Positions 53,077 through 63,511 of a stretch of 64,000 nucleotides of DNA are shown here, one piece after another; the stretch's first letter is position 1; each line of letters starts with the position of its first letter. The DNA is from Puniceicoccaceae bacterium (GTDB lineage Bacteria; Verrucomicrobiota; Verrucomicrobiia; Opitutales; JAFGAQ01): the NCBI GenBank assembly GCA_028285755.1, contig JANQOQ010000006.1, positions 372,001 through 436,000 of the forward strand, given 5' to 3'. Below the pieces are notes generated by a model. The model was not told the origin of the DNA, searched no databases, and worked only from the letters and a program-made list of their open reading frames with translations. The translations under genes and the position numbers were made by a program.

Positions 53077-53115
53077 GGCTTGATATACAAATTTAATATA
53101 CATATACATATACAT

Positions 53116-53349
53116 ATGAAGGCAATAACCATCCATGTATCTGAGCCTGTTTATCAGGAGTTTAAAGAGCATGCTAAGAGAAGTGATCGAAAAACTGCTG
53201 AGTTGATCAGAGAAGCTATGGAGCAATATAGAAAAACCCATTTTACACCTCAGCCCAGTGTACTGGACTGGTCGAACTATAATGCAGGAAAGATGCTCAT
53301 GCCTTTTTCTGAAGAGGATGATCTCTTAGATGAAATGAGTAATGCTTAG
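53116..53349 (+). CDS. Ribbon-helix-helix antitoxin (VapB-like)
   Basis: 77 residues from the ATG at 53116. The N-terminus MKAITIHVSEPVYQEFKEHAKRSDRKTAELIREAMEQY is a ribbon-helix-helix DNA-binding domain. The acidic C-terminal tail (FSEEDDLLDEMSNA) would block the toxin. No ribosome-binding site is visible: the start is preceded by three copies of a six-base AT repeat. It overlaps the PIN toxin gene by eight bases. Confidence 0.88.
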   Translation: MKAITIHVSEPVYQEFKEHAKRSDRKTAELIREAMEQYRKTHFTPQPSVLDWSNYNAGKMLMPFSEEDDLLDEMSNA

Positions 53350-53773
53350 AGCGATTGATACCACTTTTCTTGTAGAAGTTGAAATTGTATCTCATCCGAC
53401 TAATCAGAAAGCTAAGCAATTCATTGAGCAGATAGTTCGTAATGGAGATCAGTTAGCGATTGCTCCTCAAGTAATTTCAGAATTTATTCATGTTGTAACA
53501 GACCCCAAGCGATTTGAACAGCCTCTGAGTATGGATGATGCTATCCAAGCGGCGATGAAATGGTGGAATGCAAAGGAAAGCAGGCATATTTTCGGAGATA
53601 GTGAAAGCACACTATTACAAATAAAATGGATGCAACAATTCAGACTTGGGAGAAGACGGATACTCGATACCCAATTTGCCTCTATCTGCTACAGTAATGG
53701 CATTAAGTCCATTATTACAACGAATGCACGAGATTTTGAAATTTTCGAAGTGTTCGAAATCCTAAAGCCATAG
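53342..53773 (+). CDS. PIN-domain toxin (VapC-like)
   Basis: 143 residues. Acidic residues of the PIN nuclease site are visible in AIDTTFLVE, in QVISEFIHVV and in RRRILDTQFAS, with TTNARDFEIF near the end. VapC toxins cut specific RNAs, often initiator tRNA or the 23S sarcin-ricin loop, until bound by VapB. The eight-base overlap with the antitoxin gene is typical. It converges with serB nine bases downstream. Confidence 0.88.
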   Translation: MLRAIDTTFLVEVEIVSHPTNQKAKQFIEQIVRNGDQLAIAPQVISEFIHVVTDPKRFEQPLSMDDAIQAAMKWWNAKESRHIFGDSESTLLQIKWMQQFRLGRRRILDTQFASICYSNGIKSIITTNARDFEIFEVFEILKP

Positions 53774-55033: not shown

Positions 55034-55062
55034 CCTGAAAATTCTGAAAATCCACTTTACAA

Positions 55063-55078
55063 ATAGATATATATCTAT
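55063..55078. promoter_or_regulatory. Perfect 16-bp palindrome, operator 1 of the ArsR cassette
   Basis: ATAGATAT-ATATCTAT, which is the half-site ATAGATA, two bases and TATCTAT. It is 13 bases before the arsR start, in the serB/arsR intergenic gap. The same half-sites recur at 55425-55440. A repressor bound here would block the arsR promoter. Confidence 0.75.
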
Positions 55079-55091
55079 ACGTTAAGATTAA

Positions 55092-55406
55092 ATGAGTAAC
55101 TCAACAACCCTGGTTCAGTTTACCAAGGCACTCTCGGACGAGACGCGCCTGGAAATTCTGAATCTATGCGCAGGTCCCCGCATATCGGTCAGCGATATTG
55201 CGGATAAAGTGGGAGTCCGCCAACCAACTGCGACCCATCATCTGTCCATCTTAATGGAAGCAGGCCTAGTGGCGAAAACCATGGAAGGTAAACACGCGTT
55301 TTATGAGATAAATACTGAGCACTTAGTGAGCTGTTGCGGGAACCTGATGCTGAGACTCGCGCCGAATGAAGCCGCAACAAAGGCGGTTTGCAGTTGTTGT
55401 AGTTAA
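55092..55406 (+). CDS. ArsR/SmtB-family repressor with C-terminal cysteine cluster
   Basis: 104 residues. A winged HTH (ISVSDIADKVGVRQPTATHHLSILMEAGLVAKT, about residues 31-63) matches ArsR/SmtB. Cysteines are at position 26 (NLCAG), in LVSCCGNL and in the tail VCSCCS, so a thiol site for a soft metal or arsenite is likely. A C-terminal cysteine group is known from some arsenite-sensing ArsR proteins. Operator-like palindromes lie before this gene and before the micropeptide gene behind it. No arsenic or efflux gene is near. Confidence 0.88.
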   Translation: MSNSTTLVQFTKALSDETRLEILNLCAGPRISVSDIADKVGVRQPTATHHLSILMEAGLVAKTMEGKHAFYEINTEHLVSCCGNLMLRLAPNEAATKAVCSCCS

Positions 55407-55423
55407 AATTTTTTGCGCAAACC

Positions 55424-55441
55424 CATAGATAAATATCTATG
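55424..55441. promoter_or_regulatory. 18-bp palindrome, operator 2 of the ArsR cassette
   Basis: CATAGATA-AA-TATCTATG, perfect 8-bp arms around AA. It contains the same ATAGATA-N2-TATCTAT core as 55063-55078. It lies between arsR and the cysteine-rich peptide, 28 bases before that ATG. Confidence 0.75.
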
Positions 55442-55468
55442 CATAATAGAGAAAGGAGGTGAAACAAC

Positions 55469-55531
55469 ATGAGTGAAGAAAATCAAGCACCCTGCACTTG
55501 CAGTTGTGGCTGTTGCTGCAGTTGCAAATAA
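55469..55531 (+). CDS. 20-residue cysteine-rich micropeptide, metallothionein-like
   Basis: A complete reading frame of 20 codons with an excellent ribosome-binding site (AAAGGAGGTG) seven bases before the ATG. The protein is MSEENQAP then CTCSCGCCCSCK, with seven cysteines in 12 residues. The core has C-x-C and CCC spacing like metallothioneins, but the peptide is much shorter than known bacterial ones (over 50 residues). It may bind a soft metal in the cytoplasm and be induced by the same signal as arsR. Alternatives are a cysteine-codon leader peptide for attenuation, or a modified-peptide precursor. A terminator starts nine bases after the stop. Confidence 0.7.
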   Translation: MSEENQAPCTCSCGCCCSCK

Positions 55532-55540
55532 TAAATAATC

Positions 55541-55570
55541 GGGAAGCGATGCTAGCTGGCTTCCCTTTTT
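55541..55570 (+). terminator. Rho-independent terminator after the cysteine-rich peptide
   Basis: GGGAAGC (55541-55547) pairs with GCTTCCC (55559-55565) and is followed by TTTTT. The 11-base loop GATGCTAGCTG contains a small GCTAGC palindrome. It separates the ArsR cassette from the dehydrogenase gene. Confidence 0.85.
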
Positions 55571-61476: not shown

Positions 61477-62979
61477 ATGGCAGCAAGTGATTTACAAATG
61501 GATACCCTGATATCTTTGCTTAAGCGCAGGGGATTTATTTTTCAGGCATCCGATATTTACGGAGGCTTAAACGGATTCTACGATTATGGTCCCCTGGGCG
61601 TTGAATTAAAGAACAACATTAAGGCAATCTGGTGGAAAGAAATGGTGCAAATGCGGGATGATGTGGTAGGGCTGGATTCTGCGATTATCCAGAGCCCTAA
61701 GGTATGGAAAGCCTCCGGTCACCTGGACCACTTTACAGACCCGTTGGTGGACTGTAAGGAATCCAAGATGCGCTACCGGGCCGATCAGTTATTTTTTGCC
61801 AATGCGATCGTTGAGGGAGAGTCCATTGGATACGTTTCCGCTCTGGAGTCTGCGGATATCGAAGCGGACTTGCTGAAAGCTGCCCAGGAAATGAAGCGCA
61901 AAAAGGGCGTGCAGGGTGAGCTTAAGCCACTTGACATTAAAGACTTTACCGAGGCAACTGAAGAAGAGGTGTTGCTTGTCCCCTCACCCGCTACCGGCAA
62001 ACCCGGCTCGCTGACCCCGCCACGGGCATTCAATATGATGTTCCAGACCTATGTGGGCGCCCTCATCGATGAAAACTCGAAGGCCTACCTGCGCCCGGAG
62101 ACCGCTCAGGGTATTTTCACAAATTTCAAGAATGTCGTCGATTCCAGCCGGGTGAAAATCCCATTTGGTATCGCACAGATCGGAAAGGCGTTCCGCAATG
62201 AGATCACGCCGCGCAATTTCATATTCCGCTCCCGGGAATTTGAGCAAATGGAGATCGAGTATTTCATTTCGGGCGAAGATGAGGTATGGCCGAAAGTGCA
62301 TCGCCAATGGATTGACGACTGCCTTGAATGGCTTGAGGGTATCGGCATACCGCGTGAACAGCTCGGTGAAGATATCCATCCGCAGGAAAAGCTCTCGCAC
62401 TACTCCCGGGCAACGACCGATATCACCTACGATTTTCCGTTTGGCACTCAAGAGCTGTGGGGTATCGCCGCACGCGGAGACTTTGATCTGACGCAACACC
62501 AGCAACACTCGAACAAACCGCTTGAGTATTTCGACGAGCTAAAGAAAGAACGTTACATTCCACATGTGGTAGAACCTTCGCTGGGCGTGGATCGTGTGAT
62601 GCTCGCCGTATTGTGCGCAGCCTACAATGAGGATGAAGTGGATGGTGAAAAGCGAACGGTGCTTCACTTCCATCCGAAAATTGCACCGATCAAGGCTGCC
62701 GTTTTCCCATTGGTTAAAAATAAGCCGGAACTGGTTGAGCATACGCAGACGCTCTACCGCAAACTGCAACGCCGTTATCCAGTCGCTTACGACCAGGCGG
62801 GCGCGATTGGTCGCCGTTATCGACGTATGGATGAAGTGGGCACGCCTTACTGTATAACTGTGGACTTTGACTCGCTCGAAGATCAGACATACACATTGCG
62901 TGACCGCGATACTACAAAGCAAACGCGCATGAATGAGAGTGAAATCCTCGCATTTCTCGATGAGAAGATCAACGGATAA
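61477..62979 (+). CDS. glyS: Glycyl-tRNA synthetase, single-chain class II type
   Basis: About 500 residues from ATG 61477, chosen because [41 protein letters not shown] starts the conserved region; an ATG at 61459 is possible. Class II motifs are [30 protein letters not shown] and [13 protein letters not shown], and the anticodon-binding domain follows. It charges tRNA-Gly and is of the alpha2 type, not the alpha2beta2 type. It stands alone, divergent from the kinase gene. Confidence 0.97.
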
Positions 62980-63040
62980 CCTGCAGAAAATCGCACTCCC
63001 CGAATTTCATTCAACTAAAACTATGCTATACTGCACGATT

Positions 63041-63511
63041 ATGAAACACGCAAAAATCCTACTTTTATCCATTATCACAGCTATTGTATCGCCTTCTATC
63101 GTAAGTGCGCACTGTCAGGTACCCTGCGGTATCTTTGGGGATGATAGAACTTTCAGCGAACTGTATGAGAATGTTGAAACCATCGAGAAGGCAATGATTA
63201 GCATTGCTGCCTTGCAGGAAAATCCGGATCAAAACATGAATCAGATCGTGCGCTGGGTCGTGACCAAAGAAGATCATGCCCAAAAGATTCAGAATATCGC
63301 AGCTAAGTATTTTCTCGCACAAAGAATCAAAATGGACCTGAAAGAATCAGATGAGGAGAAGTATGTAGCAATGCTTAAAGGCATACACAGCATTACTTTC
63401 TATGCGATGAAGTGCAAGCACGGTATCGACACTACGTTTACCGAAAAGCTGACTGACGCGATCCACGACTTCCAACATCTTTACATGGGTGATGACGACC
63501 ATCAGCACTAA
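63041..63511 (+). CDS. sodN: Nickel-containing superoxide dismutase with Sec signal peptide
   Basis: 156 residues from ATG 63041. A signal peptide of about 27 residues (MKHAKILLLSIITAIVSPSI, then VSA) is followed by HCQVPCGIFGD. After cleavage the mature protein starts with His1-Cys2, and with Cys6 this is the nickel hook of Ni-SOD. Downstream helices (TIEKAMISIAAL, QIVRWVVTKEDHAQKIQNI) match the four-helix bundle. It converts superoxide to oxygen and peroxide. No sodX protease gene adjoins it; signal peptidase could supply the new N-terminus, placing the enzyme outside the cytoplasm. Confidence 0.92.
   Translation: MKHAKILLLSIITAIVSPSIVSAHCQVPCGIFGDDRTFSELYENVETIEKAMISIAALQENPDQNMNQIVRWVVTKEDHAQKIQNIAAKYFLAQRIKMDLKESDEEKYVAMLKGIHSITFYAMKCKHGIDTTFTEKLTDAIHDFQHLYMGDDDHQH

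Follow-up and report, generated by a model that had tools for sequence, protein, structure and literature searches.

An ArsR-type repressor gene and a 20-codon cysteine-rich frame form a conserved pair in Opitutales: a possible self-contained response to trivalent arsenic

Our analysis revealed that in the window (the whole 64,000-nucleotide stretch of DNA analysed here) an arsR gene and a 20-codon frame encoding a polycysteine peptide form a real and conserved pair, in which the frame, its ribosome-binding site (RBS) and the operator are retained among relatives. The peptide, MSEENQAPCTCSCGCCCSCK, carries seven cysteines in 20 residues, all of them within the last 12, just as the first-pass annotation of this DNA had read it, and the C-x-C and C-C motifs of so short a chain amount to a metallothionein-type composition. 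We propose, with a probability of roughly 0.6, that the cassette constitutes a metal(loid) response complete in itself, in which ArsR would be derepressed, most likely by As(III) or methylarsenite, and the peptide would sequester the toxicant. What points to trivalent arsenic is that in Chloroflexota the same repressor/operator module precedes arsM, sometimes together with a similar peptide; this link through the arsM operons is the main addition to the earlier reading, which holds for the most part. The features of the cassette are collected in Table 1.

Table 1. Features of the arsR-peptide cassette (positions in the window)
Feature	Position	Strand	Basis
arsR promoter-like element TTTACA-N16-TACGTT, operator within spacer	55056..55083	+	sequence; geometry repeated in relatives
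Operator 1, ATAGATATATATCTAT, palindrome	55063..55078	.	perfect site, one of only three in the 4.25-Mb genome
arsR, ArsR/SmtB-family repressor, 104 aa	55092..55406	+	NF033788, PF01022, AlphaFold model
Operator 2, ATAGATAAATATCTAT, palindrome before peptide gene	55425..55440	.	sequence; perfect site
Shine-Dalgarno sequence AAAGGAGGTGA	55452..55462	+	sequence; present in most homologous peptide genes
20-codon peptide gene, MSEENQAPCTCSCGCCCSCK, 7 Cys	55469..55531 (stop 55529-55531)	+	sequence and corresponding frames in relatives
Intrinsic-terminator-like hairpin GGGAAGC..GCTTCCC + T5	55541..55570	+	fold -12.6 kcal/mol

The frame behind arsR, its RBS and the operators were all found in the sequence where they had been described. 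The ATG of the peptide gene lies 62 nt beyond the arsR stop codon, and the AGGAGG of its Shine-Dalgarno (SD) sequence ends nine bases 5' of this ATG. As to the terminator, previously called strong, the hairpin and its T5 tract are indeed present 3' of the peptide stop codon, but the fold is of moderate strength (z = -1.9), and a generic terminator scan did not include it among its predictions. A sigma-70 promoter scan returned nothing above threshold, though the geometry of the arsR promoter is kept in relatives; judged by eye, the peptide gene has no good -35 element. No Rfam element was found at the cassette. The annotated neighbours between 44.8 and 63.5 kb are MFS, GNAT, CBAH, LytTR, PIN, SDR, OMP, AMP-binding, kinase/receiver, tRNA ligase and Ni-SOD genes. 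The last of these, a nickel-type superoxide dismutase at 62933-63511 (PF09055, 99.7 bits), has a frame that overlaps the frame of a class II tRNA ligase at the latter's end, and the tandem RHH (CopG-like) and PIN-domain genes at 53080-53773 are likely a VapBC-type toxin-antitoxin pair.

Searches of Pfam and NCBIfam gave no family match for the peptide, metallothionein families included, and PDB sequence searches with the peptides gave nothing significant, queries of 20 residues making both kinds of search weak. Since neither a family model nor a solved structure matches it, we file the peptide as metallothionein-like and not as a member. The minimal metallothionein of the first-pass annotation may thus hold as a functional analogy, suggested by the short cysteine-rich make-up, but judged by its sequence the peptide appears to belong to no known metallothionein family. 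A literature search limited to open-licence papers found no paper on such a peptide. We examined 759 RBS-led ORFs of 12-45 aa in 877 kb of DNA. A content of no fewer than 6 Cys, making up 20% or more of the residues, was seen only in this cassette and its arsR-bearing relatives; the 877-kb set holds several copies of some loci, and the distinct cysteine-rich matches number seven. The shuffle control yielded no cysteine-rich RBS-led micro-ORF (0/1064). Both TGC and TGT serve as cysteine codons in the peptide genes, which argues that selection acts on the peptide and not on a DNA repeat.

Within the order, 373 genomes searched at the protein level yielded three further close repressors (51-55% identity) in three families, represented by G046 (the window's own family), G032 and G093; the G046 locus has a copy, L011, in an Opitutales MAG. 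All three repressor genes are followed, at the corresponding place, by a frame of 21-25 aa with 8-9 Cys, led by AGGAGG or GGAGA (peptides MSDENIKKDECCCDCGCKCCC in L005, MSKEDIKNCCCDCDCNCDCNCK in L006 and MKETTKSKCSCQCGCCECGCDKCGC in L007), and both operators are recognisable in these loci, though degenerate in L005. Frame, RBS and operator are therefore kept in all relatives found with a cysteine-tailed arsR; a locus that retains arsR and has lost the cysteine frame, which the first-pass annotation regarded as decisive against its reading, was looked for in the three Opitutales relatives and did not occur. The peptides have in common a polar acidic/Lys stretch at the N-terminus, and their cysteine spacing varies, owing to which a DNA pattern for the exact spacing of the window's peptide found only the window itself among the 373 genomes. 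The post-stop hairpins are strong in L107 (-22.8) and L108 (-25.3); in the matching stretch of L106 a hairpin is not evident, and it folds no better than shuffles. In total, four of the 373 genomes of the order carry the cassette, and neither 388 genomes of the phylum and 384 of the class nor family searches around G032 and G093 produced a further carrier, which makes the cassette rare and its distribution patchy. The genes downstream of the cassette are unrelated across the four Opitutales: in the window it is an SDR gene, L106 has an outer-membrane efflux factor and L107 a gene on the opposite strand, and in L108 there is a small membrane-protein-like frame. In G032 an AhpD/CMD-like gene with a CxxC motif (L106:6735-7292, identified by eye) is divergent from arsR and has a promoter region in common with it.

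The repressor is a member of the ArsR/SmtB family, its winged-helix metalloregulator domain scoring above the curated cut-offs (75.8 bits against 55 for NF033788 and 46.9 bits against 22 for PF01022). Its cysteines are Cys26, the pair Cys81-Cys82 and the C-terminal Cys100-x-Cys102-Cys103, the protein ending in VCSCCS. Across 43 repressors Cys82, Gln44-Pro45-Thr46 and His49-His50 are invariant and Cys81 is frequent; a cysteine run at positions 26-28 is common, and the window's ArsR has a single cysteine there. All four Opitutales repressors have the C-terminal CxCC, which, among the repressors listed, was seen in no others; it therefore cannot serve as a sensing site common to the family. The earlier suggestion that the tail and the peptide bind the same metal agrees with the invariance of CxCC in Opitutales, but does not extend to a family-wide sensor, where Cys82 is the invariant residue. 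The AlphaFold model (pLDDT 93) has Cys81-Cys82 in helix 5; the cysteines of the tail are found partly at the end of helix 6 and partly beyond it. The best solved structural match of this model is the As(III)-responsive AfArsR (6j05), with SmtB, CadC and CzrA close behind, and the sequence match to 6j05 stops before the region of AfArsR Cys95/96/102. The protein has no R773-type CxCxxC motif, and its cysteines show no clear coincidence with any described As(III) site (R773, AfArsR, CgArsR and ArArsR types, summarised in PMC11868830).

The two palindromes of the cassette are near-identical, one standing before each gene of the pair and the second starting 18 nt beyond the arsR stop. The operator shared by the repressor family reads ATAGA-N6-TCTAT. 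In the set of 43 arsR genes made up of the window's own and those of its relatives, it occurs, with at most one mismatch, upstream of the gene in 31 and just past its stop in 29; the corresponding expectations from shuffles are 0.3 and 0.4, and only 6 of 1569 background windows contain a match; the family operator is therefore far above chance. Being conserved, the inverted repeat at arsR's own promoter is a putative binding site. The operator-in-promoter geometry recurs in relatives (TTTACATATAGATATTTGTCTATATGTT in L007, TTGACAAATAGACAAACATCTATATAAT in L012), many of whose upstream sites are arranged TTGACA-operator-TATAAT. The window's genome contains three perfect operators, namely the two cassette sites and one at C1:11239, which we rejected as a regulatory site, as it sits inside a long coding frame. 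Genome-wide, a control pattern was matched as often as the operator pattern; the weight of the evidence therefore lies in where the two sites stand and not in how many there are. The confinement of the perfect operators to the cassette and one coding-frame site suggests that the regulon is probably this cassette alone, as far as perfect operators and the ArsM, Acr3 and ArsB profiles show.

Outside the order, a scan of genome contigs retrieved mostly repressors of Anaerolineae (Chloroflexota), the best of them about 50% identical along most of their length. In the tree, the 39 outside-order repressors, nearly all from Chloroflexota, group together with support (96/99), separately from those of Opitutales. 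A scan of viral contigs yielded two distant ArsRs only, and a tblastn search of plasmids yielded, among the matches listed, ArsRs of at most about 43% identity. In most Anaerolineae relatives arsR lies directly upstream of arsM, the gene of arsenite methyltransferase, whose identity is backed by NF008823 above cut-off in six scanned cases and by similar methyltransferase sequence starts in most others; a few outside-order relatives precede arsC-like genes. The repressor family is thus associated with arsenic genes (arsM, arsC) in Chloroflexota, not at the window's locus. Furthermore, five of the outside-order relatives carry an RBS-led cysteine-rich micro-ORF near arsR or arsM. In L012 and L020 an SD-led frame (MSELPVIQSDCCEDESCDCNTCDCC and MNTLYVQNDCGCGECEGGCCGGGGCC, respectively) with its own operator is located between arsR and arsM, and arsM is also preceded by an operator of its own. 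The other three are weaker cases: 19 aa with 4 Cys after arsR in L031, 23 aa with 4 Cys just after arsM in L016, and the SD-led frame MKIFYNDPGCCDEEEQGSCCGGGCC (L017:7161-7238, 25 aa, 6 Cys), 1.9 kb downstream of arsR and about 0.3 kb past an extra operator copy. Many Anaerolineae arsR-arsM loci are without a cysteine-rich frame, and the peptides of Chloroflexota and Opitutales are too short for a shared origin to be told from their sequences.

Two further arrangements were noted in this family. In an Acidobacteria MAG (L026:4977-6321) arsR and the operator stand directly upstream of hgcA (NF040863, 426 bits), and in an Anaerolineales MAG (L032:4983-6331) directly upstream of a gene that is hgcA-like by similar sequence, which makes these repressors candidate regulators of mercury methylation. 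L025 and L039 have an SD-led micro-ORF not more than about 100 nt past the arsR stop, with LPRWTLRxVARCCEGA in common, possibly a second kind of arsR-linked peptide in Anaerolineae.

No pump or arsenic gene lies near the cassette, as had been stated earlier, and profiles of ArsM, Acr3 and ArsB found no match in the window's whole genome at the thresholds used; elsewhere in this genome, however, there is a gene of an ArsC-like LMW phosphatase directly after that of a metal ABC transporter permease (L112 / L117, contig C11:490384-490761).

From these data we infer the following mechanism. A dimer of ArsR would bind ATAGA-N6-TCTAT over its own promoter and before the peptide gene and repress both. 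The inducer, a trivalent and thiol-seeking metalloid or metal for which As(III) or methylarsenite is the likeliest candidate, would be bound by ArsR cysteines and release the repressor; the sensing site probably comprises the Cys81-Cys82 pair and a third cysteine, contributed by either the end of helix 2 or the CxCC tail peculiar to Opitutales. The 20-residue peptide, predicted from its strong SD sequence to be highly translated, would then accumulate and chelate the toxicant, its seven thiolates being able to bind about two As(III), and would act like a gene-encoded phytochelatin or a minimal metallothionein. The module is coupled to arsM in Chloroflexota, with the peptide as the only conserved nearby output in Opitutales.

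The arsM partners of the repressor family make arsenic the most probable inducer, as far as can be judged from gene context, with Cu, Ag, Hg and Cd as possible ones. Several points speak against the proposed reading, namely the lack of a clear As(III) cysteine site, the hgcA partners, the patchy occurrence of the cassette, the existence of peptide-less arsR-arsM operons and the want of a good -35 element before the peptide gene. We consider it rather unlikely that the same cassette sequesters a soft metal instead, with Cu(I), Ag(I), Hg(II), Cd(II) or Zn(II) as the cognate ion. The smtB-smtA system is a precedent for that, and so are the fungal Cu-thioneins, once called the shortest metallothioneins, whose 26 residues and 7 Cys (PMC4755600) the C-x-C-rich seven-cysteine make-up of the peptide resembles; Zn, Cd and Cu are among the ions that release AzuR, an SmtB/ArsR repressor of a metallothionein gene (PMC8790569), and the two family members directly before hgcA or an hgcA-like gene likewise suggest that mercury or another soft metal is possible. 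Against these stand the dominant genomic partner of the repressor/operator family, which is arsM, and the closest solved fold, which is that of AfArsR, though SmtB, CadC and CzrA are near behind it.

It is quite improbable, in our opinion, that the peptide serves as a metallochaperone or resetting factor handing arsenic to ArsM in Chloroflexota or to the CxCC tail of ArsR in Opitutales: the position of the peptide gene between arsR and arsM in L012 and L020 and the restriction of the cysteine tail to Opitutales, all with the peptide, would fit such a role, but in the window's genome no ArsM, Acr3 or ArsB that could act as recipient was detected. The short polycysteine frame with a terminator-like hairpin directly 3' of it also recalls a cysteine-responsive attenuator leader, in which ribosome stalling at Cys codons controls the downstream gene. 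This is very unlikely, and we rejected it, because the four Opitutales have four different, unrelated genes downstream, leaving a conserved regulated gene without support; moreover, arsM has its own operator in L012 and L020, Rfam provides no element, and the frame has a strong SD sequence, unlike the leaderless mycobacterial short ORFs. Finally, a RiPP precursor with modified cysteines, or a non-coding coincidence, is scarcely credible. The best PDB resemblance of the peptide is the thiopeptide precursor PbtA, with a non-significant E = 2.9, but no RiPP enzyme occurs among the neighbours scanned (44.8 to 63.5 kb) and there is no room for a leader peptide, on which grounds the RiPP reading was rejected, and a cysteine-rich frame with an RBS is present in all relatives.

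If arsenic sequestration by the peptide is the correct reading, bacteria handle trivalent arsenic by chelation with an encoded peptide, besides pumping and methylation, and do so with a chelator too short for gene finders. Intracellular chelation of As(III) is listed as a eukaryotic strategy (PMC11868830), and a bacterial encoded chelator would therefore be notable. More tentatively, and with a chance falling a little short of even, the peptides of Opitutales and Chloroflexota may represent a bacterial class, as yet unannotated, of micro-peptides that chelate arsenic, about 19-26 aa long with 4-9 Cys and under arsM-type ArsR; they would be a prokaryotic gene-encoded counterpart of phytochelatin and, in some Opitutales, the sole arsenic-specific output. 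The window's peptide is probably among the shortest natural metal(loid)-grabbing peptides; as a metallothionein-like protein it would lie below the fungal minimum of 26 residues. Its possible uses would be a compact genetic sensor and an arsenic-binding tag, and scanning behind arsR for SD-led cysteine-rich frames offers a way to find stress-induced micro-ORFs.

Among known systems, the cyanobacterial smtB-smtA and AzuR-nmtA pairs resemble the cassette in that an ArsR/SmtB repressor stands over a metallothionein or metallothionein-like gene via an inverted-repeat operator. SmtA-type proteins, however, are more than twice as long as the 20-residue peptide and, unlike it, have His ligands and a zinc-finger-like fold; the window's repressor belongs to the arsM-linked branch, and its operator differs from the 12-2-12 repeat of smtB/AzuR. 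The Cu-metallothioneins of Neurospora and Agaricus are similar in size, equal in cysteine number and possess the same C-x-C motifs, whereas the peptide is bacterial, has a C-C-C run and another cysteine pattern, shows no detectable homology to them and is partnered by an arsenic-type ArsR. The mycobacterial polycysteine short ORFs, which Canestrari et al. reportedly described in 2020 as cysteine-responsive attenuators, have a short poly-Cys frame in common with the cassette, where, in contrast, the frame is SD-led, has its own terminator-like hairpin and precedes no conserved gene. AfArsR, CgArsR (6j0e) and ArArsR share with the window's repressor the fold and the presumed logic of derepression, but the Cys81-Cys82 pair and the CxCC tail have no clear overlap with their sites. 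The closest relatives of the repressor outside the order, those of the Chloroflexota arsR-arsM operons, have the common operator and in some cases a cysteine-rich micro-ORF; their output is mainly ArsM, whereas in Opitutales it is the peptide only, accompanied by the CxCC tail on the repressor.
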